Positions 33,559-62,190 of a stretch of 64,000 nt of DNA are shown here, piece by piece. The stretch covers positions 1-64,000 of the forward strand of contig CACIXQ010000002.1 in the NCBI GenBank assembly GCA_902590655.1. The letters run 5' to 3'. The stretch's first letter is position 1, and the number at the start of each line of letters is the position of its first letter. Under the pieces are notes generated by a model. It had not been told where the DNA came from, made no database searches, and saw only the letters and a list, made by a program, of their open reading frames with translations. Origin of the DNA: an uncultured marine group I thaumarchaeote (lineage in GTDB: Archaea; Thermoproteota; Nitrososphaeria; Nitrososphaerales; Nitrosopumilaceae). A program made the translations under genes and the position numbers.

Positions 33559-33578
33559 ACTATGTAATTAAAAGTAGG

Positions 33579-33592
33579 ATATTTTTTATAAC
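33579..33592. promoter_or_regulatory. A/T element between iron-ADH and PEP mutase genes
   Basis: The stretch gatattttttataa is nearly A/T only and lies about 25 bases from the minus-strand ATG at 33558 and about 28 from the plus-strand ATG at 33616. The intergenic gap is only 57 bases, so both pathway genes should be started from overlapping promoters. Confidence 0.45.
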
Positions 33593-33615
33593 TTGGCAAA
33601 AAATTGAAAAATATC

Positions 33616-35544: not shown

Positions 35545-35548
35545 ATTT

Positions 35549-37435: not shown

Positions 37436-37450
37436 TTTGCCATCACCAAA

Positions 37451-38794: not shown

Positions 38795-38820
38795 TTGTAA
38801 ATCATAAGGGGGCGTTCTAT

Positions 38821-41569: not shown

Positions 41570-41585
41570 TATTATTCAAACTTTG

Positions 41586-42062: not shown

Positions 42063-42093
42063 TCAGAGTTTAACACTAAGAAATCATACTGAA

Positions 42094-42105
42094 TACATAT
42101 TTATT
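42094..42105 (+). promoter_or_regulatory. TATA-like element for the NeuB gene
   Basis: The sequence tacatatttatt is centred about 27 bases before the ATG at 42127 and fits a leaderless start. The T-run between it and the ATG is part of the initiation region. Confidence 0.4.
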
Positions 42106-42126
42106 AAAAAAATTATTTTTTTTGTT

Positions 42127-42954: not shown

Positions 42955-42955
42955 A

Positions 42956-43675: not shown

Positions 43676-44430
43676 TAGTCACTAACTAGACCGTTAGCTA
43701 ACCATCCTCCATCAACATAGATGTCTTGACCAGTTACATATCTAGAACTATCCGATGCAAGGAATATTGTAGGCCCAATAAGATCTTCTGGAGTACCCCA
43801 TCTATTTAGCATAGTATGTTTTTCTCTTGTCTTCTTTAGTTTCTTATTTTTAAACGAGTTTTTCGTCATGTCTGTTTTAATATAACCTGGACCGATATTA
43901 TTTACACGTATTCCATGTATACCACAATCTTTTGCAAATGATTTACTTAACATTTTAAGTCCACCCTTTGATGCAACATAGGAAGGATTTTCTGGGAATC
44001 CTAATTCAGCATTAATGCTAGTAATGTTAATGATTGAGCCCTGATTATTTTTCATCATATACGGAATTACTGCTTGCATACAGTAGAAACTAGCTGTTAA
44101 ATTAACCTCGATCGTTTTCAACCAGTTTTTTTGAGAATATTGTTGGTTAGATTTGTGATTAGGTAAGGAAATACCAGCACAATTAACAAGTACGTCGATA
44201 TGTTTATGTTTTTTAAATATAGTTTCACAGATTTTTGTAAATTGTTTCGGTTTTGAAACATCACATTTATGGTAAAAGACATTTCCTGATTTAGTGTTAG
44301 GTGTTTTGAGATCAATTCCATAAACGATAGCATCATTTTCTGATAATCCTCTTGATATAGCTCTTCCAATTCCACCATTGGCTCCAGTAACTATAACAAT
44401 TTTATCTTTAACCAAAAACAAGTTTTTCAT
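43675..44430 (-). CDS. Short-chain dehydrogenase (SDR)
   Basis: This 251-residue NAD(P)-dependent reductase has IVTGANGGIGRAI, the NCAGI motif, the catalytic Ser region IINITSINAELGF and PSYVASKGGLKML (Tyr-x3-Lys), and a C-terminal YVDGGWLANG. It reduces a keto group, possibly a sugar acid precursor. It lies between the SIS isomerase and NeuA, overlapping each by a few bases. The substrate is unknown. Confidence 0.88.
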   Translation of the reverse strand: MKNLFLVKDKIVIVTGANGGIGRAISRGLSENDAIVYGIDLKTPNTKSGNVFYHKCDVSKPKQFTKICETIFKKHKHIDVLVNCAGISLPNHKSNQQYSQKNWLKTIEVNLTASFYCMQAVIPYMMKNNQGSIINITSINAELGFPENPSYVASKGGLKMLSKSFAKDCGIHGIRVNNIGPGYIKTDMTKNSFKNKKLKKTREKHTMLNRWGTPEDLIGPTIFLASDSSRYVTGQDIYVDGGWLANGLVSD

Positions 44431-45068
44431 TTTTTAACACCCTTAGTCAGAATTTGCTCTACTTGTTCACATATTATATGGTAAATTACTCTATGAACTT
44501 CTTGTATATGAGGAGTATTTTTAGAGTTAACAATTATTGATACGTCAACAATTTTGGAAATCTTCCCTCCATTGTTACCAAGCATACCTATTATTACCGC
44601 ACCACGTTTTTTTGCCACTTGTAATGCTTTGTGAATATTGACAGAGTTTCCACTAGTTGAAATTCCAATAACAACATCACCTTTATTCACTAAACTTTCA
44701 CATTGTCTACTAAAAACCACATCATAAGAATAATCATTAGATAATGCAGTAATAGTGGATGAATTAGAGGTTAATGCTATCGCAGGATAACTTGGTCGTT
44801 TTAAATTATATCTGCCTAGTAACTCAGCAGCAATATGCTGTGCATCTGCAGCACTACCACCATTTCCTAGAAGTATTATCTTATGTTTTGTTTTAATTGC
44901 CGTAACTATGTAATTTATAGATAATTCTATATCAGATGCTAGATCAGTCGAATTTGAGATAGTATTCGCACTGTTAACGATTGATTTTTTTATTGTATTT
45001 GATGATGTCATATCTTTTTCTCTAAATCGATGAATTAAATAGTTACTAAGCATGGTGCTGATAAACAT
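44427..45068 (-). CDS. SIS-domain phosphoheptose isomerase-like (GmhA)
   Basis: This 213-residue SIS protein has IILLGNGGSAADAQHIAAELLGRY, VVIGISTSGNSVNIHKAL and TPHIQEVHRVIYHIICEQVE, all standard for sedoheptulose-7-phosphate isomerase GmhA. GmhA starts D-glycero-manno-heptose synthesis; no heptose kinase or guanylyl transferase gene was found, so a different ketose phosphate is possible. ATG at 45068 is taken; the next M at 45053 and M20 at 45011 also fit. Confidence 0.88.
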   Translation of the reverse strand: MFISTMLSNYLIHRFREKDMTSSNTIKKSIVNSANTISNSTDLASDIELSINYIVTAIKTKHKIILLGNGGSAADAQHIAAELLGRYNLKRPSYPAIALTSNSSTITALSNDYSYDVVFSRQCESLVNKGDVVIGISTSGNSVNIHKALQVAKKRGAVIIGMLGNNGGKISKIVDVSIIVNSKNTPHIQEVHRVIYHIICEQVEQILTKGVKK

Positions 45069-45173
45069 GCTTAATCAAAAAAACCATTTAATTACTTAAG
45101 CCTAAAAACAAAATTTTTGTGCACTATCAAATTCTACATTCAATTTAATAAGACCATTTTGAATATTGTTTTC

Positions 45174-46181
45174 ATGTTTGAAGGGAAAAAAATATTGATC
45201 ACAGGTGGTACTGGCTCCTTGGGTCAAGCTTTAACTCAACGTCTTCTTGATTTGGGAGTTGAAACTATAAGGATATTCAGCAGAAATGAGCATAAACAAA
45301 TTGAGATGGAATCAAAATTTCAAGATGAGAGATTACGTTTCTTTATTGGTGATGTTCGTGATTACCAGCGTTTAGAAATGGCATTAGAAGACATTGATAT
45401 TGTTTTTCATGCAGCTGCACTGAAGCATGTACCAAAAATAGAATATAATCCATTTGAAGCTATTAAGACAAATGTGATTGGAACACAGAATGTTATTGAT
45501 GCATGTTTAAAGAATAATGTAGAAAAAGCAGTGTGTATTGGAACGGATAAAGCTGTTTCTCCACTAAATACATATGGTTCAACAAAACTGTTGATGGAAA
45601 AACTGTTTGTTGCAGCAAATAATTATTTAAACCGAGAAAAACATCAGACTGTTTTCCTGGCAGTTAGATACGGAAATGTTTTAGGTAGTAGTGGCTCTGT
45701 CATCCCAAAATTTATTGAACAGATTAAAGCAAACAAACCAATTACTATCACTGATGCACAAATGACTAGGTTCAGCATTACTATGAATGAGGCTTTGGAT
45801 CTAATCATAAATGCAGTAACATTTGCCAAGGGATCAGAAATTTTTGTTCCAAAATTATCTGCTTACAGTATCACTGATGTTAAAAACGCCTTAACAGAAT
45901 TATTAACGGATACAGGTGAAAAAATTATTGGAATTCGTACAGGTGAAAAGCTCCACGAAACATTGATCAATGAAGATGAAATCAAGTATAGTTGGATTTT
46001 TAAAAATATGTATGTAATTGTAAGCCCATTATACACATTATTTAACGAAGAAAATGTAAAAGAATCTTATCAGGATGTTAAGAAAATAGAGGGTATACGG
46101 AAATATTCCTCAGACAGTGTTGAAAAAATTTCTCTAAAAGACCTTAAGGTAATAATAGAAAATTCAGGATTATTAAACTGA
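45174..46181 (+). CDS. UDP-GlcNAc 4,6-dehydratase family (PseB/LegB/CapD-like)
   Basis: This 335-residue extended SDR has ILITGGTGSLGQALTQRLL, HAAALKHVPKIEYNPFEAIKTN, GTDKAVSPLNTYGSTK (Tyr-x3-Lys) and GNVLGSSGSVIPKF, the sign of the inverting/retaining 4,6-dehydratase group. It makes the 4-keto-6-deoxy intermediate for pseudaminic/legionaminic-type sugars. ATG at 45174 is preferred over the longer frame to 45117 because of the TATA-like caatttaata about 27 bases before it and the usual MFEGKKILITGG start. Confidence 0.92.
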   Translation: MFEGKKILITGGTGSLGQALTQRLLDLGVETIRIFSRNEHKQIEMESKFQDERLRFFIGDVRDYQRLEMALEDIDIVFHAAALKHVPKIEYNPFEAIKTNVIGTQNVIDACLKNNVEKAVCIGTDKAVSPLNTYGSTKLLMEKLFVAANNYLNREKHQTVFLAVRYGNVLGSSGSVIPKFIEQIKANKPITITDAQMTRFSITMNEALDLIINAVTFAKGSEIFVPKLSAYSITDVKNALTELLTDTGEKIIGIRTGEKLHETLINEDEIKYSWIFKNMYVIVSPLYTLFNEENVKESYQDVKKIEGIRKYSSDSVEKISLKDLKVIIENSGLLN

Positions 46182-46183
46182 AA

Positions 46184-46612
46184 TCAATTCTCTTTTTCAC
46201 TCAATTCAAACGTATATTGAATTAGTTTAAACCCATGATTCTTGAAAAATTGTATAGACTTCCTATTTTTTGGATTAACGTTAGCTAGGTATCTTTTTTT
46301 GGGATTTTTTTGAATCATTTTGGATAATGCGATATTTCCAATTCGCTTACTCTGAAAAGATTTTTTTATAAAAATGCCTATTTCGTTTTGTGGTGTAAGA
46401 TAAATCGAACCTGCTTTATTCACACCATATAATATTACATACCATTTTGAGTAAGGCTTTGAGGAAACAAATGATACATGTTGATTATAAGTAGGCATTT
46501 TTTTATGAGAAATATTTTGAGCTGAATCACGTTCCATAAGGAGATTATACAAAAATCGGTAATCCGATTTCGAAACATGCTTTAATTTTATCGGCGATTT
46601 ATTCCTAGCCAA
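46184..46612 (-). CDS. GNAT acetyltransferase, possibly PseH-like
   Basis: This protein of about 142 residues opens PIKLKHVSKSDYRFLYNLLMERD, then NEIGIFIKKSFQSKRIGNIALSKMI (acetyl-CoA site) and NPKNRKSIQFFKNHGFKLIQYTFEL, all GNAT-type. Near a 4,6-dehydratase, DegT aminotransferase and NeuB genes, an amino-sugar N-acetyltransferase is likely. The long frame reaches 46738 but overlaps the divergent NeuB gene; a TTG at 46612 gives a normal GNAT start and fits the shared TATA element about 28 bases upstream. Confidence 0.82.
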   Translation of the reverse strand: MARNKSPIKLKHVSKSDYRFLYNLLMERDSAQNISHKKMPTYNQHVSFVSSKPYSKWYVILYGVNKAGSIYLTPQNEIGIFIKKSFQSKRIGNIALSKMIQKNPKKRYLANVNPKNRKSIQFFKNHGFKLIQYTFELSEKEN

Positions 46613-46637
46613 TTTAGTTTTTTTAGTATGGCTAAAG

Positions 46638-46645
46638 AATAAATC
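46638..46645. promoter_or_regulatory. TATA element shared by GNAT and second NeuB genes
   Basis: The sequence aataaatc lies about 28 bases from the minus-strand start at 46612 and about 24-27 from the plus-strand ATG pair at 46665/46668. The gap between the two start codons is 52 bases, so one A/T element must serve both directions. Confidence 0.4.
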
Positions 46646-46664
46646 TTGTGAACGAATTATAGTA

Positions 46665-47399
46665 ATGATGAAAGTTACAATTGTAGCAGAGATTGCATCA
46701 AATTGGGAAGGTAGTGTTACCAAAGCAAAAAAACTCATAAAAGAATGTAAAAGGGCTGGTGCAGATGCAGTAAAATTTCAAGTATGGAGGGCATCTGATT
46801 TGTATGATAAAAAACACCCTAATTGGAAACAAATAAAAAAATCTGAGCTTACTTTTGAAAAAATAAAACAAATTAAAAGTTTCTCAGACAGAAACAATAT
46901 TGATTTTTTTTGTAGTTTATTCTATCCAGAAGCTGTTGAATTTCTTGATTCATTAAATGTAAAAATGTATAAAGTTGCGTCAAGAACATGTTTGCTTAAA
47001 GATCCATATTCATATGAGACATTACAACAAGAAGCTATAACAAGAAAACCGATCATAATTAGTATGGGAATGGGTGGAAATAAAAATAAAATTAAAAAAA
47101 TTTTTTCTAAAAACAAAAAAATTTTTTGTTACTGTATATCAGAATATCCTACAGAATTTAGTAAAATAAAATGGAATGAAGTAAAAAAATATGATGGATT
47201 TTCTGATCACACATTAGGAATCATTGCACCAATTGTTTTTAGTGTACTAAAAAAGAACCAAGGAGCAAAAAATATTATAATTGAAAAACATGTTAAATTA
47301 AAAAATTCTAAGGGGCCTGATGCTTCAACATCCATAGATACCCAACAACTCAAGAGTGTGATTCGTAGTATTAGAACGCTAGAAAAATTAAATATTTAA
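46665..47399 (+). CDS. Second NeuB-family synthase, short, SAF domain absent
   Basis: This 244-residue TIM-barrel protein is similar to the first NeuB: VTIVAEIASNWEGSVTKAKKLIKEC, AVKFQVWRASDLY, FFCSLFYPEAVEFLD, CISEYPTEFSKIKWNEVKKYDGFSDHTLGIIAP, IIIEKHVKLKNSKGPDASTSID. It is 30 residues shorter than the other copy and lacks the SAF domain. The Asp-His of FSDH and the later EKH fit active-site positions. Whether both are active is unknown; they share little sequence. Confidence 0.88.
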   Translation: MMKVTIVAEIASNWEGSVTKAKKLIKECKRAGADAVKFQVWRASDLYDKKHPNWKQIKKSELTFEKIKQIKSFSDRNNIDFFCSLFYPEAVEFLDSLNVKMYKVASRTCLLKDPYSYETLQQEAITRKPIIISMGMGGNKNKIKKIFSKNKKIFCYCISEYPTEFSKIKWNEVKKYDGFSDHTLGIIAPIVFSVLKKNQGAKNIIIEKHVKLKNSKGPDASTSIDTQQLKSVIRSIRTLEKLNI

Positions 47400-50284: not shown

Positions 50285-50304
50285 CTAATTTAGTCAAATT
50301 GTTT

Positions 50305-51462
50305 ATGATAAAATATTGCCGTAATTGTGTATATCCAGAGACTAAACCTGATCTAACTTTTGATGAAGAAGGAATATGTGATGCATGTAGATTTGCAAAT
50401 GTTAAAGATACTACTGATTGGGAATCAAGAAGGGAAGAATTAGTCAAGATTTTTAATAAATTTAAAAATAAAGATGGTTCCAATTATGATTGCGTTATAC
50501 CAGTTAGTGGAGGAAAAGACTCCACTTATCAAACTTATATGGTAAAAGAAGAGTTTGGATTAAACCCCTTATGTGTAAGTTATCATCTTCCTGAATTTAC
50601 GGATTTAGGAAGAAAAAATTTAGAAAATCTAAAAAGATTGGGTGTTGACTGTTTGGAATTTACTCCAAACCCAGAGATTTGCCAAAAAATGCAAAAAATT
50701 GCTTTGATTGAATTTGGTGATGCACAATGGCCTGAGCATTTTGGAATTTTTACTGTCCCAGTACAAGTAGCTGTACGTTATAACATTCCATTAATAGTTT
50801 GGGGAGAGAATCCCCAGGCAGAATATGGAGGACCATTAGAGGATAGTACAAATAGTTATCTTGATAGCAAATGGTGCAAAGAATATGGAACGAGAGTTGG
50901 CGGTCAATCTAATTCTTATTTTGGTCCAGAAGTAATGTTACAATATGGTATTGATCGAAAATTTCTTAATCCGTATATTTATCCACCCGATGATGAAATA
51001 AAACGAGTTGGTGTGACTGGAATCTTTCTTGGCTCTTTTCTCAAATGGAATATTAAAAATCAGTTAGAAAAAGTGCGTGAATTAGGTTTTACATTACACG
51101 AGGGACCGTCAGAAGGAACTTTCACTAATTATGAGAATCTTGATAATAAAATTCAAGGAATACATGATTACTTTAAGTGGCTGAAATTTGGTTATGGTAG
51201 ATCGACAGACAACGCATCTATTCAAATTAGATTAAATTGGATCAATAGAGAAGAGGCTATGAAATTAGTTAGAGAATATGAGGGTAAATTGCCGGAAAAA
51301 TATCTTAACGAGTTTTTGGAGCAATGGAATATGAGCAGGGATGAATTCTTTAAGATCGCTGATAAATTTACGAATAAAGAACTATTCAAAAAAGACAGTA
51401 ATGGGAATCTATTACGAGATGAATTGGGAAACCTCGAAAAAACTAATTATGATAATTTTTAA
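50305..51462 (+). CDS. N-acetyl sugar amidotransferase (PseA/LegF/WbpG-like)
   Basis: This 385-residue ATP-PPase has a zinc-like opening YCRNCVYPETKPDLTFDEEGICDACRFA, the PP-loop CVIPVSGGKDSTYQ, and later blocks WGENPQAEYGG and GIFLGSFLKWN. It adds an amidino group to acetamido sugars, as in pseudaminic or legionaminic acid derivatives. No HisH/HisF-like partner, which supplies ammonia in bacteria, is nearby. ATG at 50305. The next gene (dioxygenase) abuts its stop codon exactly. Confidence 0.9.
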   Translation: MIKYCRNCVYPETKPDLTFDEEGICDACRFANVKDTTDWESRREELVKIFNKFKNKDGSNYDCVIPVSGGKDSTYQTYMVKEEFGLNPLCVSYHLPEFTDLGRKNLENLKRLGVDCLEFTPNPEICQKMQKIALIEFGDAQWPEHFGIFTVPVQVAVRYNIPLIVWGENPQAEYGGPLEDSTNSYLDSKWCKEYGTRVGGQSNSYFGPEVMLQYGIDRKFLNPYIYPPDDEIKRVGVTGIFLGSFLKWNIKNQLEKVRELGFTLHEGPSEGTFTNYENLDNKIQGIHDYFKWLKFGYGRSTDNASIQIRLNWINREEAMKLVREYEGKLPEKYLNEFLEQWNMSRDEFFKIADKFTNKELFKKDSNGNLLRDELGNLEKTNYDNF

Positions 51463-52344
51463 ATGATAATTATGCAACAAAATATTACAGAACTTCAGAA
51501 AAATCAATTTTTTGACGATGGATATATAATTCTAAAAGACTTTTTTTCACATGAGGATCTTCAAAAAATAGAAACTGCGTTTATTCGTATGTATGCAATT
51601 CAGGCATCAAAAATTTTAGAATATAGAAAAAAACTGCATAAAGGAATAAATTTTTTAGAATATTCAACTGTAGACGATTTAATCAAAATCCTTGAATTAT
51701 TAGAAGAAAAAGACAAGGAAGCACTATATCAGGTACAAAAGATCCTTTCACAATCATATTTTGTCAAGGAATTCTCTTTGAATCAAAAATTGATCAACAT
51801 TGCTTCACAATTATTGAATTGCCCAAAGGAAATTGTTTTGTTTGATGATTTAGGGCTGTTAATTAATAGACCCAACACCAAGCGTCTATTATACAAATGG
51901 CATACGGAAGTCAGTTTTTATCCAAAACGACAGAATTTCTTGAATGCATACTTGCCTATGTTCTTTGATAAAAATTTGGAAAACGGCCATATGATTATGG
52001 GAAAGGGGTCTCACAAATTAACTGATGTACCATTTATTGAATACCAGGGATATGATGTAGATTCTATTGGTAAAAAAAATTACTTTGTACAATATGAAGT
52101 GCCTTCTTCTATTGCAGAAAAATTTGAGAAAATTCCTGCAATAACGAAAAGAGGAGATTTGGTCTTATTTGAAAGAAATCTGATACATACATCAACACCA
52201 AATACTACAAACCAATACTCTTTTGCAAGTGTTTGTAGAATCTGGGAGCCTACACAGGATCTAACTTTATCAGGTGAATTTAGAGTTAAACCATATAATA
52301 ATGATTTTGGAAGACCTGGAATAGATAAAATTCCAAAGAGCTAA
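51463..52344 (+). CDS. Phytanoyl-CoA dioxygenase-like Fe(II)/2-oxoglutarate oxygenase
   Basis: This 293-residue oxygenase of the PhyH family has iron ligands that can be read as His and Glu in YKWHTEVSFYP and the distal His in ERNLIHTSTPNTTN. The opening FFDDGYIILKDFFSHEDLQKI is typical. The usual HxD is HxE here. The ATG follows the amidotransferase stop with no gap, so the two are one transcript. Hydroxylation of a sugar, an acyl chain or a phosphonate are all possible substrates; none can be proven from sequence. Confidence 0.85.
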   Translation: MIIMQQNITELQKNQFFDDGYIILKDFFSHEDLQKIETAFIRMYAIQASKILEYRKKLHKGINFLEYSTVDDLIKILELLEEKDKEALYQVQKILSQSYFVKEFSLNQKLINIASQLLNCPKEIVLFDDLGLLINRPNTKRLLYKWHTEVSFYPKRQNFLNAYLPMFFDKNLENGHMIMGKGSHKLTDVPFIEYQGYDVDSIGKKNYFVQYEVPSSIAEKFEKIPAITKRGDLVLFERNLIHTSTPNTTNQYSFASVCRIWEPTQDLTLSGEFRVKPYNNDFGRPGIDKIPKS

Positions 52345-52380: not shown

Positions 52381-54252
52381 TTATTCTTTTGTTATAAACG
52401 ACCAGGTTTTATTGCATGCACTTCCAAGGTTTGTAATATAATTTGTAATAAATTTTTGATAATTTTGGATAGATTTTTTTCTAAATTTATCATCATTAAA
52501 TAATTTTTTTAAAGTATTTTCAAGTTCCTCTATCAATGTTATTTCAACAGATTCAGAAGTTAAGACTTCAGGTCTTCCTAATAATGAATCGTAATTGATA
52601 GTTTCAACAAAAATTACAGGTTTATGATGTAGCTGGGCCTCAATAATTGAAGTTGTTAATTCAAGAACTATTAAAGCACTGCAAGATGGTATTAAGGTTC
52701 CAATATTACCACTGGTTATAACAGTTATTTGAGAATCAATTTTATTAACAATATCTTTAACGTTTAATGCATCTGGCGATGGATGTAATTTGATGATAAG
52801 TTTTTTTCCTGTCTGATTAACAATTTCACAGATTTTTTTTATTGTATCAACATATTCCTCTATATTTTTTGTAGATAATCCATGAATGAATTCTGGTTCT
52901 GGACCTGTTATAGCAAATAAAATATAATCATTGTTGCTAGAATTTTTAAATTGCAAATTATCAAAACGAATACAACCTAGCGCTTCAATTTTTTCTTCGG
53001 GAATTTCACCATAAGTAATTGCATTTTGTTTTGTAGATTCTCCCCAAACAAGGAATTTATCAGAATTGGAAGGAAAAACTCCTTGTGAATCGATCACTAA
53101 CCCCTTCTGTGCAGTTTCATAATAACATCCATGTTGGAGAAGAAATATTGGAATGCTAGATTTCCTTGCAAAATGTCCTATAATTTGCTCAGTAAACCCA
53201 ATTTCAGAAAGTAATAAGATTTTATTAAATTCATATTCTTGAAACATGTTTTTTACTAACTCAATTTCAGATAGTAAATTATCCAATCTATTTTCAAGTA
53301 ATTCTAGAAAATATGGTTTTATTACAGCCCAGATTGAAATTTTATCAATTGAAAAAAATGAATTCAAAAATGTTTCCTCTGACCATAATGATTTAATATT
53401 GTTTTTAATTTCTAATTTTTGATTTGTATCACTAAAAAATTTTTTGTTTTTTAATGAAAAATGTGTAATAATTTTAGAATTAGTTTTTTTGAAGAGTGAA
53501 AAAGTCTTTAGATTAAAAACTGGTGGTCTTCTTCTTCCAAAAAATATTTTTTCTGTATGTGCTTTTTTTGATTCCAAAATAAAATCACTAAATTTTATGG
53601 GATCAAATTCAACAAATAATGTTGAATGTTGTTTGTTGGTGGTTTTTTTATTTACATTAAAATTTACATGTAAAAATAGATCTAATACCTGTTTAATTTT
53701 TTGATAAAATGAATGTGGAATAACAATGATAGAGTGTTTATGACCAATTTTTATATTTAATCTGACTTTATCATGGGCAAACTTTAATGGTATTTCATCA
53801 GCTGAATTAATTTTATTGGCTTGCTTTGTTAGAATAGAAATAAGTTTGTACAATTCATACGAAGAGGTAAAAAAATGATCGGGATAAGTATTATAGATAT
53901 TTAAAATTTCATGGAATTTTTTGAAGATCGGTATGAGAAATGAATGAGTTTCATCGTGTACTAATTTACCTAGATTAATTCCTTCATAAGTGAGATATTT
54001 TTTAGCTAATGTCTCATTATACCATTTAACTTTTTCATAAACTTGCTTTTGTATATAATCAAAATTATTTCCTTTAAGAAAATTTTCTGATATTTCATGT
54101 GTAATTCCTTCTTTTTTTAAAATACTGTGTGATTCGTAGTCAAACGAAATAATTTTAACACTAGGATTTTTAATTAGAAATTCTTTAACTGTCTCAATTT
54201 TTATTGAAACATCTACACAAATTATTTGTTTGGTTTTTTCCATTTTTTCCAA
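52381..54252 (-). CDS. Large putative surface-polysaccharide glycosyltransferase (GT-B like)
   Basis: This 623-residue protein has a diverse N-terminal half with no clear domain. From about residue 340 a GT-B-like part reads ILLSEIGFTEQIIGHFARK, then IFLLQHGCYYET, LIIKLHPSPDALNVKD and ALIVLELTTSIIEAQLHHKPVIFV, as in CDP-glycerol/KpsS-type transferases. The first 40 or so residues (IICVDVSIKIETVKEF) have a strand-like start. ATG at 54252 overlaps the cupin gene by 31 bases; ATG at 54243 is also possible. No membrane segment. Confidence 0.7.
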   Translation of the reverse strand: MEKMEKTKQIICVDVSIKIETVKEFLIKNPSVKIISFDYESHSILKKEGITHEISENFLKGNNFDYIQKQVYEKVKWYNETLAKKYLTYEGINLGKLVHDETHSFLIPIFKKFHEILNIYNTYPDHFFTSSYELYKLISILTKQANKINSADEIPLKFAHDKVRLNIKIGHKHSIIVIPHSFYQKIKQVLDLFLHVNFNVNKKTTNKQHSTLFVEFDPIKFSDFILESKKAHTEKIFFGRRRPPVFNLKTFSLFKKTNSKIITHFSLKNKKFFSDTNQKLEIKNNIKSLWSEETFLNSFFSIDKISIWAVIKPYFLELLENRLDNLLSEIELVKNMFQEYEFNKILLLSEIGFTEQIIGHFARKSSIPIFLLQHGCYYETAQKGLVIDSQGVFPSNSDKFLVWGESTKQNAITYGEIPEEKIEALGCIRFDNLQFKNSSNNDYILFAITGPEPEFIHGLSTKNIEEYVDTIKKICEIVNQTGKKLIIKLHPSPDALNVKDIVNKIDSQITVITSGNIGTLIPSCSALIVLELTTSIIEAQLHHKPVIFVETINYDSLLGRPEVLTSESVEITLIEELENTLKKLFNDDKFRKKSIQNYQKFITNYITNLGSACNKTWSFITKE

Positions 54253-54680
54253 TCATAATCATCAAATGTTGTATTTTCCATTTCATTATCATTTGGTTTC
54301 CATGCTAAATCCGCTAATGCAAGAATTTTTGATGTATCATTTGATATATTCACATGTGCTGAAGCAACATTTTTTGGAACATGAACTAGAACTGGATTTG
54401 TTTCACTTGATTCAATTTCGATATAATCATTTTTTTCATTCTTAACTACAAAAATCACTTTTCCATGTATACATGTAAAATAGCTATTCCTTTTTGTATG
54501 TATATGCGGTCCTTTAATTTCACCAGATTCTACAGAACTGACATAAACCATTTTTGGTTCATTTTTTAAAATTTTATCCCAATCCCTCCAAATTACAGTT
54601 AGTGAACCATTAACATGACCATCATCTGTATCCTTAGTGGGATGCTTTTCAAGTGTAGTTATAATATCATGCTGATTCAA
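54222..54680 (-). CDS. RmlC/WxcM-like cupin sugar isomerase or epimerase
   Basis: This 152-residue single-cupin protein has GPHIHTKRNSYFTCIHGKVIFVVKN, DLAWKPNDNEMENTTFDDYDW, an arrangement seen in RmlC-type 3,5-epimerases and in the FdtA/WxcM 3,4-ketoisomerases. It probably acts on the dTDP-4-keto sugar made by RmlB next door. The active-site His-Tyr pair of RmlC is not clearly conserved, which favours an FdtA-like role, but this is uncertain. The start is an ATG at 54680; the gene end overlaps the next one. Confidence 0.75.
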   Translation of the reverse strand: MNQHDIITTLEKHPTKDTDDGHVNGSLTVIWRDWDKILKNEPKMVYVSSVESGEIKGPHIHTKRNSYFTCIHGKVIFVVKNEKNDYIEIESSETNPVLVHVPKNVASAHVNISNDTSKILALADLAWKPNDNEMENTTFDDYDWKKWKKPNK

Positions 54681-54788: not shown

Positions 54789-55775
54789 ATGAAAATACTT
54801 GTTACTGGAGGACTAGGATTTATTGGTAGTAATTTTATTTTAAAATTATTAAAAGAATCTAATGAGTTTGAAGTAATTAATGTGGATGCAGAATTATATG
54901 GTGCAGACAGAAGAAATCTATCTGAAATTCAGAATCATGAAAAATATCAATTTGTAAAAGGAAATATAACAAATAAGCGATTTATGGAAGAAATTATTGA
55001 TAAATGTGATTTGGTTGTAAATTTTGCAGCAGAATCTTTTGTTGATCGTAGTATTAGCGATGCAAATCCATTCTTAGTATCTAATATTAGAGGGGCATTT
55101 ACTATTCTAGATATAATAACTAAGCAAAAAAAACGAATGATACAAATTTCTACTGATGAAGTATTCGGAAGTTTGTCATCTAGTACAGCAACTGAAGAAT
55201 CAAAGCTCAATCCATCTAGCCCCTATGCTGCAACTAAAGCAGCAGCTGAACTTCTAATATCTTCGTATTGTATTACATATGGTTCTGATGTAATAATTAC
55301 TAGATGTACTAATAATTATGGTCCAAGGCAATTTCCAGAAAAATTGATTCCAAAAACAATTATTTTAGCAAATCAAAATCAAAAAATTCCAATTTATGGA
55401 AAAGGTCAAAACATTAGAGATTGGATTCACGTAGATGATCATTGTAATGGAATCATGTCGTTACTTTTAGATGGTAAATCTGGTCAATCATATAATATTT
55501 CTGCAAATAATGAGATAGATAATCTTACAATTGTAAAAAAGATATTAGATATTATGGGAAAATCTGAAGATTTGATTGAATATGTAGAAGATAGACCTGG
55601 CCATGATTTTAGATATAGTATGAATTCAAGCAAAATTTACAAAGAAATGAGTTGGAAACCAAAAATTGGTTTTGAAGAAGGTATTAAAAAAACTGTTGAA
55701 TGGTATCTAAACCATGAAGAAATCTGGAAAGAATTATCGCCGAAAATATTAGATCCAACGCCTTGGAAAAATTAG
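54789..55775 (+). CDS. rmlB: dTDP-glucose 4,6-dehydratase
   Basis: This 328-residue extended SDR makes dTDP-4-keto-6-deoxyglucose. MKILVTGGLGFIGSNF, NFAAESFVDRSIS, QISTDEVFGSL, SSPYAATKAAAELL (Tyr-x3-Lys), RCTNNYGPRQFPEKL and GKGQNIRDWIHVDDHCNGI are all typical. It starts the pair rmlB-rmlA; a TATA-like atattttatta is about 27 bases before the ATG. RmlD is not seen nearby. Confidence 0.95.
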   Translation: MKILVTGGLGFIGSNFILKLLKESNEFEVINVDAELYGADRRNLSEIQNHEKYQFVKGNITNKRFMEEIIDKCDLVVNFAAESFVDRSISDANPFLVSNIRGAFTILDIITKQKKRMIQISTDEVFGSLSSSTATEESKLNPSSPYAATKAAAELLISSYCITYGSDVIITRCTNNYGPRQFPEKLIPKTIILANQNQKIPIYGKGQNIRDWIHVDDHCNGIMSLLLDGKSGQSYNISANNEIDNLTIVKKILDIMGKSEDLIEYVEDRPGHDFRYSMNSSKIYKEMSWKPKIGFEEGIKKTVEWYLNHEEIWKELSPKILDPTPWKN

Positions 55776-55805
55776 ATTTAATTTTATGTGATGTATGTAA
55801 TTAAA

Positions 55806-56837
55806 ATGAAAGGTATTATTCTTCACGGTGGACATGGAACTAGATTAAGACCATTGACCCATACTGGTCCAAAACAACTTTTACCAATAGCGAACAAACC
55901 AATGTCACAATATTGTATAGAATCAATTAAGGGGGCTGGTATTACAGAAATTGCTATTATAATAGGTGGCTTGGGTGCGAACAAAGTCAGGGATTATTAT
56001 GGAAATGGAGAAAATTTTGGTGTAAATCTTACATATATCGAACAAGATGAACCCAGAGGAATTGCACATGCGATTAGACTGTGCAAGGAATTTATCAATA
56101 ATGAAAAATTTCTTGTTTTTCTAGGTGATAATATTATACAAAGACCCATTACTGATTTTATAGATAATTTTACTAAATCAGGTTATGATGCCACAGTTTT
56201 GCTATGTGAAGTAGACAATCCAAGTAGATTTGGAATTGCAGATATTGAAAATAAAAAAATTGCAAAAATCACAGAAAAGCCAAAAAAACCGACATCAAAT
56301 CTAGCAGTAACTGGCATATACTTGTTAACTCCATTAATTTTTGAAATCATAGATAATTTGAAACCATCTTGGCGAAATGAACTAGAGATAACAGATGCAT
56401 TAGATAATTTACTGAAACAGAATGACAATATCGGCTACGAAATAATAACAGACTACTGGAAAGATACTGGTACTCCAGAGGATATTTTAAATGCAAATAG
56501 ACAAGTGTTAGAACATATTTGCACAAGACCAAGCACGGTTATTATTGATGAATCAAGTAAAGATTGGATTGGTTTGAAAGGTCATTGCATAATTGGGAAA
56601 AATTGTAAAATTGACAAATCTGCTACGATTGGTCCTCATGTGAGCATAGGGGATAATACAATAATATCATCTGATGTTGTTATAGAAAATTCCATAATAA
56701 TGTCCGGTTGTAAAATAGACGGAGGTTTAAACATCAAAGACAGCATCATTTCAGCAAACTGCCACCTACATGGTAATAATAAAGATAAAACTAAGAAAAT
56801 TTTCTTGCTTGGAGAAGGGACAAAAATATCACTTTAG
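55806..56837 (+). CDS. rmlA: Glucose-1-phosphate thymidylyltransferase (long form)
   Basis: This 343-residue enzyme makes dTDP-glucose. The nucleotide loop KGIILHGGHGTRLRPLTHTGPKQLLPI, then FLGDNIIQRPI, EVDNPSRFGIADIE, TGIYLLTP and ITDYWKDTGTPEDIL are standard. It carries an extra C-terminal left-handed beta-helix (about 270-320: IIGKNCKIDKSATIGPHVSIGDNTIISSD), as in the long archaeal RmlA form. ATG at 55806 is chosen; a GTG at 55788 is in frame. Confidence 0.93.
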   Translation: MKGIILHGGHGTRLRPLTHTGPKQLLPIANKPMSQYCIESIKGAGITEIAIIIGGLGANKVRDYYGNGENFGVNLTYIEQDEPRGIAHAIRLCKEFINNEKFLVFLGDNIIQRPITDFIDNFTKSGYDATVLLCEVDNPSRFGIADIENKKIAKITEKPKKPTSNLAVTGIYLLTPLIFEIIDNLKPSWRNELEITDALDNLLKQNDNIGYEIITDYWKDTGTPEDILNANRQVLEHICTRPSTVIIDESSKDWIGLKGHCIIGKNCKIDKSATIGPHVSIGDNTIISSDVVIENSIIMSGCKIDGGLNIKDSIISANCHLHGNNKDKTKKIFLLGEGTKISL

Positions 56838-56895: not shown

Positions 56896-57948
56896 ATGGA
56901 AAATAATTCTCAGCCTCTTGTTAGTATCATAATTCTAAATTATAATGCTGGTCAATTGTTACTAGATTGTGTAAATTCTATTAAAAAATCAAATTATAGT
57001 AATTTCGAAATCATAATAGTAGATAATATATCGAATGATCAAAGTCATAGAAAATGTAAATCAAAATTTCCAGAAGTTAAATTAATTGAAAATAAAGAAA
57101 ATCTGGGATACTGTGAGGGAAATAATGTAGGAATAAGGAATGCCGCTGGAAAATTTATAGTTATAATGAATCCAGATACTGAAGTATCACCATCATGGTT
57201 GCACGAACTCATAATTGCATATGAAAAACAAGGTGAAGGAATTTTTCAACCAAAAATTCTCTCATTAAATGAGAAAAACATACTACAAAGTACAGGAAAT
57301 ATGATTCACATATTTGGTTTTGGGTTTTCACGAGACTTGGGAATTATTGATTCCAATGAGCATGATTCTATTGAACAAATTGGATACGCTGCAGGAACTT
57401 GTTTTTTTACATCTGCTGAAGTTTTTAAGAAAGTTGGATTATTCGATCCATTTATTTTCTTATATCATGATGATTTAGATTTCTGTTGGAGAGCAGCGCA
57501 AATGGGTATAAAATCCTATTATGTTCCAGAAGCAAAAATTTTTCATGTTAAAAGTTATAATCTTAAGTGGAGTTCAAAGAAATTTTATTGGTTAGAACGA
57601 AATAGAAAATATTGTATTTTAACGCATTATTCGAAAACTACATATTCAAAAATGAGATCACAATTATTCCTTTCCGAAATTATAATTTGGCTCACATATT
57701 TCGCTAAAGGTTTTTTGCTTGCAAAAATTAAGGCTGATTTAGATATTTCACAAAATAAGAATAAAATAAAGAAAAGATATGTAGAATTGGAGAATAAGAA
57801 ACTAATTGAAGATACTAAATTGATAGAAACTTTTCCTAATTCAGTTTTTATTTCCGAATATATTTCACGGAATTGGTCGAGTGTAATTTTTAATAAACTA
57901 ATTTCAAAGTTAAGCATTGGGGCGAAAGGAAATATCTTAAAATCATAA
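56896..57948 (+). CDS. Family 2 glycosyltransferase (rhamnosyltransferase-like)
   Basis: This 350-residue GT2 enzyme has PLVSIIILNYNAGQLLLDCV, EIIIVDNISND, IENKENLGYCEGNNVGIR, FIVIMNPDTEVSPSWL (metal DxD equivalent), GTCFFTSAEVFKKVGLFDPF and YHDDLDFCWRAAQMG. It resembles the WbbL/rhamnosyltransferase group. The acceptor is unknown. The end overlaps the convergent holo-ACP synthase gene by six bases. Confidence 0.9.
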   Translation: MENNSQPLVSIIILNYNAGQLLLDCVNSIKKSNYSNFEIIIVDNISNDQSHRKCKSKFPEVKLIENKENLGYCEGNNVGIRNAAGKFIVIMNPDTEVSPSWLHELIIAYEKQGEGIFQPKILSLNEKNILQSTGNMIHIFGFGFSRDLGIIDSNEHDSIEQIGYAAGTCFFTSAEVFKKVGLFDPFIFLYHDDLDFCWRAAQMGIKSYYVPEAKIFHVKSYNLKWSSKKFYWLERNRKYCILTHYSKTTYSKMRSQLFLSEIIIWLTYFAKGFLLAKIKADLDISQNKNKIKKRYVELENKKLIEDTKLIETFPNSVFISEYISRNWSSVIFNKLISKLSIGAKGNILKS

Positions 57949-58293
57949 TAATTTTTTCGAAATTACTACACCTATAGCAACTCCCGCATCATGAGTCAAT
58001 GATGCTAGAAATTTGTATTTGTTTTTATGATTGCCGAAAATTACTACTTGTGGTTTTGAATCTGAATAGGTGATTTCTATATCAGAAAATGAGATATCTT
58101 CATTTATTGATTTTTTTACTGATTCTTTCAAAGCAAATTTGCCTGCAAAATGTTCATACGGATTTTTAAATTTAAGACAATAATCAATTTCATTTTGTTT
58201 AAAAAGTTTTTTATAGAAACTAGGCCTTGCATTATATTTTATTTTTTTAAATCTACATATTTCTACTATATCGACACCAATACCATCAGTCAT
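57943..58293 (-). CDS. acpS: Holo-ACP synthase (4'-phosphopantetheinyl transferase, AcpS type)
   Basis: This 116-residue protein has DGIGVDIVEI (with metal Asp8) and EHFAGKFALKESVKKSI (with Glu57 and Lys60), the two motifs of AcpS-type transferases. It attaches phosphopantetheine from CoA to the serine of an acyl carrier protein. Archaea normally do not need this, since their lipids are isoprenoid. The carrier protein gene is two positions upstream. Last gene of the FkbH-ACP-MaoC-AcpS operon. Confidence 0.92.
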   Translation of the reverse strand: MTDGIGVDIVEICRFKKIKYNARPSFYKKLFKQNEIDYCLKFKNPYEHFAGKFALKESVKKSINEDISFSDIEITYSDSKPQVVIFGNHKNKYKFLASLTHDAGVAIGVVISKKLL

Positions 58294-58311
58294 TTCAATA
58301 CTATTTGATCA

Positions 58312-58737
58312 TCAATCCCGAACAATAACTTTTGCAATTCCATCTACAAGACAATTCTCATTTTGATTAGAAATTACAGTTTTCAAAGTAAGCATTTTTG
58401 TTGAATTATGTTTTTCTGTCACTGTACCTGTAATTTTGATATCATCTCCTATGAAACATGGCGCTCTAAAATTCAGAGACTGTGAAAAATATAAAGAAAA
58501 TTTACCTGGTATGTACATTCCAATCAATCTTGAAAAGAATGATGCCAATAACATTCCATGACACACGCGTCCTTTGAATTGGGTTGTTTTAGCGTATTGT
58601 TCATCCATATGAAGAGGATTAAAATCACCAGAAATATTTGCAAAATTATCTAACATTTTTTCATCAATTTTTACAGAAAAATTCTTAGTATATCCTATAG
58701 GAATTTCATCGAAAGTGTGAATTTCAAAATCAGTCAT
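58312..58737 (-). CDS. MaoC-like dehydratase/enoyl hydratase
   Basis: This 141-residue hot-dog fold protein has ISGDFNPLHMDEQYAKTTQF with catalytic Asp-His, then GRVCHGMLLASFFSRL, LYFSQSLNFRAPCFIGDDIKITGTV. The family hydrates or dehydrates acyl thioesters. It overlaps ACP by eight bases and lies between ACP and AcpS, so its substrate is probably an ACP-bound acyl group. ATG start. Confidence 0.88.
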   Translation of the reverse strand: MTDFEIHTFDEIPIGYTKNFSVKIDEKMLDNFANISGDFNPLHMDEQYAKTTQFKGRVCHGMLLASFFSRLIGMYIPGKFSLYFSQSLNFRAPCFIGDDIKITGTVTEKHNSTKMLTLKTVISNQNENCLVDGIAKVIVRD

Positions 58738-58969
58738 TTAATTCAATTCCATGTTTTTTTAAATATTTTTTTATATCTGCAACATTTTTAGTTTCAACAA
58801 CTTCATCAATGGAAAATTCTGTTTTAAATTCAGTTTCTAATTCATCTAATAGAACATAAGAATTAAACGAATCCCAACTCTCAATTGTTTCTGGGCTAGA
58901 TTCATCATTGATTTCAGATATTGGTATATCCATTACCTTTGAAATTATACTGTAAACTCGTTTAGACAT
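58730..58969 (-). CDS. Acyl carrier protein
   Basis: This 79-residue ACP has the phosphopantetheine motif WDSFNSYVLLDELE (Ser34), with acidic helix II following and ISEINDESSPETIESWD before. Length and charge fit a discrete ACP for FkbH-type enzymes. The start overlaps the FkbH stop by one base and the end overlaps MaoC by eight. ACP genes are rare in archaea. Confidence 0.92.
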   Translation of the reverse strand: MSKRVYSIISKVMDIPISEINDESSPETIESWDSFNSYVLLDELETEFKTEFSIDEVVETKNVADIKKYLKKHGIELND

Positions 58970-60723
58970 TATTCATCTATTACTTCAATAAAATCTGGTG
59001 ATTTGAATTTGTTGTTTACATCAATAATCCAGCCATCTTCATTTTTTTGAAATCCACAATCTGGAAGGAAATCTTCAATTGGTTTATTTTTTTTAGTTGG
59101 AAGATAATTTGCTTTAATTGTAGTAACACCATTGTCTTTTGCTTTGGAAATTATGTGCTGCATGATGCATTTTTCTATCTGACGCCCCATAATCCTACAG
59201 CTTAATAGAAAAGTATCAAGATGCCACTCCTTTGGATTTCTCTTATTCAGAATGAAGACACTAGTTATCCCATTATCTCCAAATTTATCCTCAACTTGTG
59301 CATACCCTATCTCAATATTTTTATCCTCTACGAAATTTTTTATGTCCTCTTCCTGATACCTTTTTGTCGTAAGATTGAATTGATTTGTTTTCAATGTTAG
59401 TTGTGAAATTCTAGGGATTGAGAATTTATCTGCGTCTTTGATTATTACCTTTAATTTGAGATTCTTGAGAAATTCATCCAAATTAGTTACACTTCGTTCA
59501 AATTCTTGTCGGTTTTTTTGTTGTGCATACATCTGGCCACGTTTTGCATCTTCATCAGTAATTTTTAGCGAATTGAATTCTTTCATATTTTTGATAATTG
59601 TTGTATACTGAGATGGATCATTAGAAAGCTCTACTGTGAAAACATCCGGTAGACTAGATCTCATAAAATCTCTATTAACAGGATCATCATCAAAATACAC
59701 CAAGTAATCTAATCCAAAATTCAGCTCTTTTGCTATATCGATCATATTTGATACTTTATCATTCCAATTAATTTTCATGCAGGCAAAATGTTCTTTTCGA
59801 AGTATCATATCAGGATGATTTGTTATAACATCTAATGCGTCATCAGGATTATTTTTACTGTTTATTGCAAGTAGAATTCCTCTTTGGTTTAAAGAAAGCA
59901 AGTATTTTTGAAATTCTATAAATGAATTACCCTGTGGGTCAGCGCCAAGTTTGATTCCATCGTAACCATCTTCTCCAACAATTCCTCCCCATAACGTATT
60001 ATCAAGATCAAGAACTATGCATCTTTTAGTTAATCCCAACACGGCAAAAACATAACCAGTAAATTCATCAGCTAAATTTGAAATATAATCCAAAGAAATT
60101 TTTATGTCACCAAATAAGAATTGCTTAGTGTCAAAGATATTTTTCTCACCATATTGATTAACAAATGAATTAAAATCAAATATGTAAACAGAATCATTTT
60201 TCAAAAACTCGTTTGTTAGATTTTCATTCAATTTTTTGATCGAATTATGGAAGCCATCCACAACTTTTGTTTCAAATATTCCATAGGGAGAATAAGAAGG
60301 AATATTAAAATTTGTCACTATCAGTTTTGATTGAGTTTGATTAGTAAAAGAATGTATAAGATTTTTTAAATCTTCAAATTTCTCATCAAATATTTTCTTT
60401 CTTTCTGATGATGAAACTGAATATGGTTGATAAAACAACTTACCTAATATGCTACGTGTATCAAGTATCAGGAAAGTGATATCTGGTGAAAATTTGTATA
60501 ATTTACTACTTGAATCAAGAATTTCCTGGTTAAATTGATTATATCCTCCTACATAGGTTGTACAGTCTACTTTTTTTTCATATAATTTAACACGTAAAGA
60601 TTCTTCTAAACCATTAATAGTGAAACTACTAAGTACAGCTACTCTAATTTTATTATTAAAATTATTACTACCTAATTTTTTAGCTTTGTTTAAAAAATAA
60701 GATAATTTTTCGTTATTAGACAT
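58969..60723 (-). CDS. FkbH-like protein (acyl-ACP synthase, HAD-IIIC family)
   Basis: This 584-residue protein is of the FkbH family, known to load a three-carbon acid (from 1,3-bisphosphoglycerate) onto ACP in macrolide and polyketide pathways. The N-terminal SGNH-like region starts near VAVLSSFTINGLEESL; the HAD domain has IVLDLDNTLWGGIVGEDG (nucleophile Asp pair) and YFDDDPVNRDF; the C-terminal GNAT-like domain has LTLKTNQFNLTTKRYQEEDI and EDKFGDNGITSVFIL. Cys/Asp chemistry is not proven here. First gene of the operon FkbH-ACP-MaoC-AcpS. Confidence 0.92.
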   Translation of the reverse strand: MSNNEKLSYFLNKAKKLGSNNFNNKIRVAVLSSFTINGLEESLRVKLYEKKVDCTTYVGGYNQFNQEILDSSSKLYKFSPDITFLILDTRSILGKLFYQPYSVSSSERKKIFDEKFEDLKNLIHSFTNQTQSKLIVTNFNIPSYSPYGIFETKVVDGFHNSIKKLNENLTNEFLKNDSVYIFDFNSFVNQYGEKNIFDTKQFLFGDIKISLDYISNLADEFTGYVFAVLGLTKRCIVLDLDNTLWGGIVGEDGYDGIKLGADPQGNSFIEFQKYLLSLNQRGILLAINSKNNPDDALDVITNHPDMILRKEHFACMKINWNDKVSNMIDIAKELNFGLDYLVYFDDDPVNRDFMRSSLPDVFTVELSNDPSQYTTIIKNMKEFNSLKITDEDAKRGQMYAQQKNRQEFERSVTNLDEFLKNLKLKVIIKDADKFSIPRISQLTLKTNQFNLTTKRYQEEDIKNFVEDKNIEIGYAQVEDKFGDNGITSVFILNKRNPKEWHLDTFLLSCRIMGRQIEKCIMQHIISKAKDNGVTTIKANYLPTKKNKPIEDFLPDCGFQKNEDGWIIDVNNKFKSPDFIEVIDE

Positions 60724-60815: not shown

Positions 60816-61340
60816 ATGGACAATCCTGTGGAAACCAACGAGAGAGAAATCATGGAATATTATGGTCTTAATGGTTTCATGGGAAAGACCAGAATGAAGA
60901 TGAAATTTCTGCGTTCCTGGATGTTACATACAATGGCTTATTCTTCCCCACATTCAGGACTTATAGCAAGCATACAAAGATCACGTGGAGTAAAAATTGG
61001 GAATAATTGTCATTTTTCTCCATACGTGTTATTAGATTTAGTTTATCCACATTTAGTAAACATTGGAAATAATGTCACGTTTGGATCCAATGTTATGATT
61101 TTTGCACATAATAATCCTGCTGCAAATCTATTTTTAAAGAATGGTGAATTTCCTAGAAAAGTTGAACAAGTAAATATAAAATCTGGTGCGGTTTTATTTC
61201 CTGGATCTATAATCACTGCTGGTGTAACTATTGGAGAAAACTCGGTAATTTCTGTAGGTAGTGTAGTAACACATGATATTCCTGATTATTGTGTAGTTGT
61301 TGGAAATCCGGGAAGAGTAATAAAAAGAATTAATCATTGA
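60816..61340 (+). CDS. Left-handed beta-helix O-acetyltransferase (WbbJ-like)
   Basis: This 174-residue acetyltransferase has hexapeptide repeats from about residue 60 (VKIGNNCHFSPYVLL, VNIGNNVTFGSNVM, VNIKSGAVLFPGSIITAGVTIGENSVIS) and the end VGNPGRVIKR. The N-terminal 50 residues have a basic helix-like start. The first part is longer than in simple sugar N-acetyltransferases. It may decorate the glycan; the substrate is unknown. ATG. Confidence 0.85.
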   Translation: MDNPVETNEREIMEYYGLNGFMGKTRMKMKFLRSWMLHTMAYSSPHSGLIASIQRSRGVKIGNNCHFSPYVLLDLVYPHLVNIGNNVTFGSNVMIFAHNNPAANLFLKNGEFPRKVEQVNIKSGAVLFPGSIITAGVTIGENSVISVGSVVTHDIPDYCVVVGNPGRVIKRINH

Positions 61341-61347
61341 GAAAAAA

Positions 61348-62190
61348 TTGAATATATTAGGAATAGATTTTGAGGATTGGTATCATCCAGAACTGATTAA
61401 ACGAACTATAAAAAATGAAAAACGTAATCCTTCTGTTATAAATGGCATTGACAAAATATTGGATTTGTTAAGAAAACACGAAACATTTGCAACATTTTTT
61501 GTTGTAGGTGAATTACTGGAAATTCAACCAGATATTTTTGATAAGATCATTGAAAATGATCACGAAATTGGATTTCATACAATGAATCATGATCGATTAG
61601 ATTCTCCTGGGTTTAAAGAGAAATTTTCTATTGAAATTGAAAAATTTACGGAATTAACTAACCGTAAATCATGTGGGTTTAGGGCTCCAACATTTTCGCT
61701 TAATAATAATAGTTCATGGGCAATTGATGTTTTGGAGGAAAATAATTATGTATATGATAGCAGTATTGTTCCCGCTAAAACTAGCATGTATGGCTCACCA
61801 AATGCCGAACATAAACCATATAAAATTACAAGTAGATCCCTTGAAAAAAATAATTCTTCAGGAAAGATAATTGAATTTCCTTTACTGGTAACAACATTTC
61901 TTGGTAAAAAAATTCCTGCGGGTGGAGGGTTTTATCTAAGAACACTTCCTACTAAAATTATAAAAAATGCGTTCAAAAATTATGAAAATAACAATATGCC
62001 CGGAACTTTTTATATTCATTCTTGGGAACTGACGCCGGAATTCATGCCAAAATTGGATTTACCATGGAAGGATAAATTTACTACCTATCATAATTTAGAC
62101 AAAGCATATTCTAGAATGTCTGAATTACTGAAATCATTTGAATTTACTTCATTTAGTCGTTATATTGCAGAAAATAAAATGATTAATTGA
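61348..62190 (+). CDS. Polysaccharide deacetylase-like (NodB/CE4)
   Basis: This 280-residue enzyme has LGIDFEDWYHPELIK at the start (first Asp), ATFFVVGELLEIQPD, HEIGFHTMNHDRLD (the two metal His), CGFRAPTFSLNNNSSW and GTFYIHSWELTP. These are CE4 motifs, and the subgroup DUF3473-type. It removes N-acetyl groups from a polysaccharide or lipid-linked sugar. Start TTG at 61348, eight bases after the acetyltransferase stop. The end overlaps the epimerase by 8 bases. No signal peptide: a cytoplasmic enzyme. Confidence 0.88.
   Translation: MNILGIDFEDWYHPELIKRTIKNEKRNPSVINGIDKILDLLRKHETFATFFVVGELLEIQPDIFDKIIENDHEIGFHTMNHDRLDSPGFKEKFSIEIEKFTELTNRKSCGFRAPTFSLNNNSSWAIDVLEENNYVYDSSIVPAKTSMYGSPNAEHKPYKITSRSLEKNNSSGKIIEFPLLVTTFLGKKIPAGGGFYLRTLPTKIIKNAFKNYENNNMPGTFYIHSWELTPEFMPKLDLPWKDKFTTYHNLDKAYSRMSELLKSFEFTSFSRYIAENKMIN

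Follow-up and report, generated by a model that had tools for sequence, protein, structure and literature searches.

A self-contained acyl carrier protein cassette among the glycan genes of ammonia-oxidising archaea: a candidate system for glycan acylation

Introduction

Archaea are held to make their lipids without acyl carrier protein (ACP). What, then, does an archaeon do with a discrete ACP and the enzyme that would activate it? The question is raised by a stretch of 64,000 nucleotides (nt) from an uncultured marine group I thaumarchaeote (contig CACIXQ010000002.1, here called the window), in which four minus-strand genes, encoding FkbH, ACP, MaoC and the holo-ACP synthase AcpS, lie head to tail at 57943–60723. 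Our answer, held with moderate confidence, is that they form a self-contained ACP plug-in, probably from bacteria, which decorates surface glycans with a three-carbon (C3) hydroxyacid, probably glyceryl, by means of LbH, the product of the adjacent divergent gene. All these genes are members of known families and are conserved; in related genomes ACP, AcpS and LbH stay linked while the loading and tailoring enzymes are swapped.

According to one review, few archaea have an ACP, and these gained it by transfer (PMC3533463); according to another paper no archaeal ACP is known (PMC6138646). No description of the cassette was found in the literature on FkbH with MBOAT or Nitrosopumilus, or on ACP in Thaumarchaeota exopolysaccharide, a search in which subscription papers were mostly not covered.

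Gene organisation and protein identities

The genes of the cassette and the divergent LbH gene are as follows.

58969..60723, minus strand: FkbH, 584 amino acids (aa), with an FkbH_N domain, a HAD-IIIC phosphatase domain and a C-terminal GNAT-like domain; proposed to load a C3 acid onto ACP.
58730..58969, minus strand: ACP, 79 aa (PF00550), with Ser34 as the phosphopantetheine site.
58312..58737, minus strand: MaoC, a hot-dog enzyme of the MaoC/R-hydratase type, in a swappable tailoring slot that holds VOC in nine relatives.
57943..58293, minus strand: AcpS, holo-ACP synthase, a group I phosphopantetheinyl transferase of 116 aa (PF01648).
60816..61340, plus strand: LbH, a hexapeptide acyltransferase (PF00132), divergent; proposed acyl-ACP:sugar transferase.

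An original prediction, made from the sequence of the window, described the four cassette genes as tightly overlapping. The four reading frames are confirmed and each matches its family. The overlap is real for three of the genes (1 nt between FkbH and ACP, 8 nt between ACP and MaoC), but MaoC and AcpS are separated by a gap of 18 nt.

FkbH is a full-length member of its family (TIGR01686, E 1e-93, above the cut-off; N-terminal domain PF21211, E 6e-21). The HAD residues D239, D241, S289, K323 and D345/D346, together with C509, show conservation in both archaea and bacteria. Just before motif II the archaeal family has Asn, where 52 of 80 sequences from elsewhere have Cys, and the idea of a loading Cys at this position was dropped. 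In the AlphaFold (AF2) model, with a pLDDT of 82.5, the N-terminal and HAD domains match 3slr (TM 0.89 by target); GNAT folds are matched as well, with lower scores, and are assigned to the C-terminal domain. The model is thus consistent with phosphatase and acyl-transfer functions. Long bacterial FkbHs were searched for a fused ACP domain, and none was found.

The ACP was predicted to be a discrete protein with Ser34 as its active residue, and this is what is seen: it matches PF00550 with E 2.2e-5 (25.0 bits against a cut-off of 20.8), and Ser34, in the motif WDSF, is kept in at least 95% of 35 archaeal homologues. Trp32 is also conserved; many relatives have Thr or Ser in place of the Asp of the phosphopantetheine motif. 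The nearest solved chain is 2lml. MaoC (PF01575, E 1.2e-20) is closest among solved structures to 1iq6, an R-specific enoyl-CoA hydratase (E 8e-25), and its Asp38/His43, the catalytic pair of the hydratase-2 motif, are kept in at least 95% of 25 homologues. AcpS matches PF01648 with E 5e-12 and TIGR00516 with 56.8 bits, just under the cut-off of 59.8; in alignments of 25 to 35 archaeal homologues its Asp8, Glu57 and Lys61 are kept in at least 95% of rows. Three relatives (G181, G182 and G193; G numbers denote genomes and L numbers loci) have AcpS-family matches within frames of 238–271 aa, longer than a group I AcpS and perhaps of the Sfp type.

The window belongs to a 911-kb assembly that is 74% complete. 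Profile searches of this genome give one match for ACP and one for AcpS, both at the cassette.

Occurrence and gene order in the archaeal family

A survey was made of 250 genomes of the archaeal family to which the window belongs. FkbH is present in 37, AcpS in 43 and LbH in 44 of them. FkbH occurs together with LbH in 34 genomes, that is, in 34 of the 37 that have FkbH (p 1.5e-29), and together with AcpS in 32 (p 7.5e-26), both p values ignoring relatedness. LbH is therefore part of the carrier-protein unit. Among the genomes missing one partner, several copies are fragmentary; in G038, G175 and G236 the AcpS beside FkbH was missed by the Pfam search and found with a custom profile.

The original prediction had named, as the outcome that would count against it, FkbH homologues in related archaea that never lie next to an ACP. 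The reverse is seen: an ACP is close to every intact FkbH that is not cut by a contig end. In the 34 pairs measured the two genes are adjacent, and in 22 of these they overlap by exactly 1 nt. The order FkbH-ACP-(MaoC or VOC)-AcpS, with a divergent LbH, recurs across the family, and since it does so in dozens of genomes the arrangement is not due to chance. The claim that an archaeon has a self-contained carrier-protein module, lying amid glycan genes and equipped with a phosphopantetheinyl transferase of its own, is upheld, and the module recurs in relatives. Departures from the order exist. In L062 it is ACP-MaoC-SDR-FkbH, and AcpS adjoins LbH on the other strand. In G173 FkbH-ACP-MaoC (L057) lies near an opposite-strand AcpS, away from the glycan slot (L106:7047-8489), where LbH is found without FkbH and with a 171-aa reading frame. 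Up to three FkbH copies (L037, L063 and L065) are present in G229, an assembly with 6% contamination, one of them with MaoC and another with VOC.

In a class-wide sample of 250 genomes FkbH was found in the window's family only; L113, a Nitrososphaerales record, also carries it.

The FkbH cassettes of G116 and G026 (L064 and L066) are interrupted by several stops, through decay or assembly error. They would fit a horizontally acquired cassette that is in decay or has no function, an explanation to which we give the least credence of all the explanations considered: the window copy is intact, catalytic residues are kept across divergent copies, and some of the breaks may be assembly errors.

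Exchange of tailoring enzyme and loader

MaoC had been taken as a fixed part of the module. This is not borne out: in nine loci (L047, L049, L050, L052, L054, L055, L056, L058 and L063) its place is taken by an epimerase-like VOC protein, that of L055 matching the methylmalonyl-CoA epimerase model TIGR03081 with E 3e-20, under the cut-off of that model. About 25 archaeal loci have MaoC, 9 have VOC and none has both. On the FkbH tree the exchange amounts to three changes. A genome-wide scan outside the family gave 80 FkbH loci, 71 of them bacterial, and here too the two enzymes exclude each other, with a small MaoC in 15 of the 71, VOC in 8 and both in none. In L046, L062 and L064 MaoC is accompanied by a FabG-like reductase.

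The loader is exchanged as well. Eight loci (L089–L093, L095, L096 and L101) have an AMP-binding ligase (PF00501, E 8.5e-57 for that of L089) and no FkbH, and keep LbH. They carry ACP and AcpS where the contig permits, L095 and L101 being cut by contig ends; in L096 about 10 kb separate LbH from the ligase and ACP. A further locus, L098, has the ligase without LbH. When the ligase is mapped as a label on the LbH tree it requires three changes, at least two of which are forced by well-supported branches; L100, at a contig end, was entered as FkbH-type without a visible loader.

The candidate transferase

That LbH is retained after a change of loader is the strongest evidence for its working together with the carrier protein. 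In ligase-type loci the LbH proteins share 56–58% identity with that of the window. AF2 (pLDDT 93.7) and Foldseek give it a left-handed β-helix fold, with maltose and galactoside O-acetyltransferases as nearest relatives. His98, at the position of the catalytic His, is invariant in 19 homologues and also in the ligase-type loci. The original prediction had suggested that a neighbouring β-helix protein or an FkbM enzyme might finish the job. The first is now the best candidate, its label being corrected to hexapeptide-repeat acyltransferase; FkbM finds no support, as it is missing in many cassettes and belongs to a methyltransferase family.

The nearest structures of LbH are, however, acetyl-CoA enzymes, and the first steps of the pathway could be as proposed while LbH is an unrelated acetyl-CoA O-acetyltransferase. 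The true transferase would then be either a membrane acyltransferase, as in relatives with DltB-like MBOAT and SGNH proteins, or an enzyme not recognised as such, for instance the 623-aa surface carbohydrate protein at 52381–54252. In L052 and L053 a gene of 313–316 aa, read as SGNH-like, and a DltB-like MBOAT (TIGR04091, 1e-50, below the cut-off) are inserted between LbH and FkbH, and an MBOAT lies near 33 of the 71 bacterial FkbH loci. Against this, MBOAT is weakly enriched with FkbH in the family (12/29, p 1.7e-4) and LbH is near-universal and stays with the carrier module across the change of loader. The 74%-complete window genome gave no match to MBOAT, the DltB-type component of a Dlt system, and MBOAT was dropped as the transferase there. 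We consider a separate transferase unlikely, but an explanation to be taken seriously.

Proposed mechanism

On the basis of these observations we propose four steps in which LbH is the transferase. Firstly, AcpS would add phosphopantetheine to Ser34 of ACP, as suggested by the intact catalytic residues and by the detection of a sole AcpS and a sole ACP. Secondly, FkbH would load a C3 acid, most likely D-glycerate from 1,3-bisphosphoglycerate, with the HAD domain removing the phosphate and ACP receiving the acyl group; this is the chemistry expected of the FkbH family. In tetronate and methoxymalonyl pathways FkbH-like enzymes have been assigned the formation of glyceryl-ACP from 1,3-bisphosphoglycerate, an assignment worded as 'likely' for the authors' own cluster (PMC7489565). 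Thirdly, MaoC, or VOC in relatives, would modify the ACP-bound acyl group at C2 or C3. From the chemistry of these enzymes, glyceryl might be dehydrated to a pyruvyl-level thioester, which cassettes with a FabG-like SDR could reduce further to lactyl; alternatively, C2 might be inverted. Finally, LbH would move the acyl group to a hydroxyl or amine of a sugar in the neighbouring dTDP-sugar-derived glycan, as its constant linkage and its fold suggest.

A wider reading is put forward more tentatively, and with less assurance than that given in the Introduction. It is that archaea possess an ACP-dependent glycan acylation with one constant transferase, around which both the loader (either FkbH or an AMP-ligase) and the tailoring enzyme (either MaoC or VOC, with an optional reductase) can be exchanged. 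Each strain of these ammonia-oxidising archaea may then attach its own small acyl group (for instance D-glyceryl, L-glyceryl, pyruvyl or lactyl) to a surface sugar, and AcpS may have been acquired together with the cassette by hosts lacking a housekeeping one.

Pairs of FkbH and ACP are classic in polyketide clusters (PMC7489565), and the ACP could instead feed a soluble polyketide-like product. FkbH would then supply its starter or extender, in the form of glyceryl or hydroxymalonyl, much as it does in clusters for FK520 or tetronates. The resemblance of MaoC to R-specific enoyl-CoA hydratases would likewise suit a small ACP-dependent path of fatty-acid type, supplying hydroxyacyl groups, in which MaoC hydrates a chain of C4 or longer and FkbH is a mere phosphatase. 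Against both stands the missing ketosynthase. As far as searched, the original statement that none is obvious holds: in the family PF00109 gives short matches only, of at most about 30 bits, most of them in frames of 368–405 aa that are read as thiolase-superfamily enzymes. A polyketide or fatty-acid role was dropped on this ground. The cassette, in addition, has no dehydrogenases of the methoxymalonyl route and lies always among nucleotide-sugar and glycosyltransferase genes, making a polyketide-like product very improbable; it has no enoyl reductase, and a VOC in place of MaoC would not serve fatty-acid synthesis, so that this second role is improbable too.

Several points weigh against glycan acylation through LbH. 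The main doubt is the one raised above: the closest solved relatives of LbH use acetyl-CoA, and LbH could be no more than an ordinary O-acetyltransferase with an ACP for a neighbour. Linkage in a gene cluster does not prove a shared pathway, and in G173 LbH stays in the glycan slot while FkbH lies elsewhere. The Asn in place of Cys before motif II means that the loading chemistry of the archaeal FkbH may differ. The SDR needed for a lactyl product is absent from most cassettes, that of the window included.

The glycan context

The cassette and LbH are flanked by the following genes.

61348..62190, plus strand: polysaccharide deacetylase (DUF3473; PF01522, PF11959), which adjoins LbH in most loci and is a possible partner.
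56896..57948, plus strand: GT2 glycosyltransferase (PF00535, 2e-25), a convergent neighbour whose order is conserved.
55788..56837, plus strand: RmlA-like nucleotidyltransferase, a conserved neighbour by gene order, named from a reading of the sequence.
54789..55775, plus strand: RmlB-like dehydratase, a conserved neighbour, named in the same way.
54222..54680, minus strand: FdtA-type cupin of the 3,4-ketoisomerase family (PF05523, 5e-17), a conserved neighbour.

FdtA co-occurs with FkbH in 24 genomes (p 1e-13). This co-occurrence and the conserved neighbours point to a dTDP-sugar-derived glycan, and the presence of FdtA suggests that the acceptor is an amino-deoxy dTDP-sugar. The link with FdtA suggests a 3-amino sugar, yet for both of the nearby aminotransferases the best-scoring model is PseC, that of a 4-aminotransferase.

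Further sets of genes are found elsewhere in the window. Near the glycan genes, at 32614–36304, is a phosphonate set with a PEP-mutase-like protein (TIGR02320, 4e-87, below the cut-off), a phosphonopyruvate decarboxylase as two genes, a nucleotidyltransferase and an iron alcohol dehydrogenase. Three sulfatase-like genes follow in tandem (36317–40197), two of which were searched and match PF00884. Sialic-acid-like sugar genes at 41583–47399 encode a nonulosonate 9-phosphatase-like protein, two NeuB/PseI-type synthases, a PseF-like cytidylyltransferase and an SDR. At 50299–52344 a WbuX-type N-acetyl sugar amidotransferase (TIGR03573, 7e-107) is followed directly by a PhyH-like dioxygenase.

Origin of the cassette

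The bacterial FkbH loci of the scan have similar parts, with an ACP within four genes in 58 of 71. AcpS is found in one of the 71, as against three of the four archaeal loci outside the family (Fisher p 2e-4). The four-gene block expected in relatives and in bacteria thus recurs in the archaeal family, while the bacterial loci are similar but almost always without AcpS. Three bacterial loci (L133, L148 and L160) have a protein of 535–547 aa with no assigned family between MaoC and FkbH.

In a tree from a short search, with SH-aLRT support and without bootstrap, the archaeal FkbHs fall into a single group (SH-aLRT 91), which takes in those of nanoarchaeal L116, micrarchaeal L120 and Asgard L118. 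In the nanoarchaeal locus FkbH and ACP have a 139-aa protein between them; it was considered as a third tailoring enzyme and dropped, because it reads as a membrane protein. The nearest bacterium to the group is a member of the Clostridiaceae (L121) with the order MaoC-SDR-FkbH-ACP. Similar parts are found widely among bacteria. The kit was therefore not invented by archaea, and from this breadth it probably came from bacteria. We read AcpS as having been acquired along with it because hosts without one of their own need it.

Comparison with known systems

The tetronate genes rfbKLMNO of Vibrio cholerae O1, with an ACP, an AMP-ligase and an LbH-type transferase, concern a hydroxyacid on an amino sugar and resemble the AMP-ligase variant. 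The Dlt system of D-alanylation (DltA ligase, DltC carrier, DltB MBOAT and DltD) shares the principle that a loader charges a carrier and the acyl group passes to a surface polymer, and the likeness extends in relatives to the AMP-ligase variant and the DltB-like MBOAT. In the window, by contrast, the loader is FkbH and the transferase candidate is LbH. One relative, G065 (L102:4300-6450, with L053), has Dlt-like parts in an archaeon: besides its FkbH-MBOAT cassette it has another carrier-like gene, accompanied by a DltA-like ligase (TIGR01734, 5e-73, below the cut-off) and its AcpS.

The bacterial FkbH sets (L117, L119 and L121–L189) share ACP, MaoC or VOC, SDR and MBOAT/SGNH parts with the archaeal kit; their transferase candidate is usually MBOAT, where the archaeal kit has LbH. 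The tetronate and methoxymalonyl-ACP pairs (Mad7/Mad8 and Mad14/Mad12; PMC7489565) have in common with it an FkbH-like protein beside a discrete ACP. The archaeal cassette differs in having no polyketide synthase, FabH or glycerate dehydrogenases, and in having its own AcpS, MaoC or VOC, LbH and a glycan neighbourhood.

A bacterial precedent in setting, by description and not by sequence, is that of Campylobacter jejuni, whose flagellin glycosylation locus contains a gene with an fkbH domain, cj1302 (PMC7099621), and whose flagellin bears di-O-methyl-glyceric acid on pseudaminic acid (PMC3068675). Here too an FkbH gene lies in a sugar-biosynthesis locus and a sugar carries a glyceric-acid derivative. 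By this analogy cj1302 may make the glyceric-acid group, although the organism is a bacterium and the genetics in the cited papers concern Cj1295.

Conclusions

The original interpretation is thus partly supported. The kit varies a known FkbH-ACP chemistry in a new setting, made self-contained by AcpS and built of exchangeable parts. The exchange of MaoC and VOC gives a handle on FkbH-ACP sets that are widespread in bacteria and of which we found no description. For the ammonia-oxidising archaea, the cassette represents a recurrent use of ACP and AcpS whose predicted job lies outside lipid synthesis, and it is a testable source of variation in their surface glycans.

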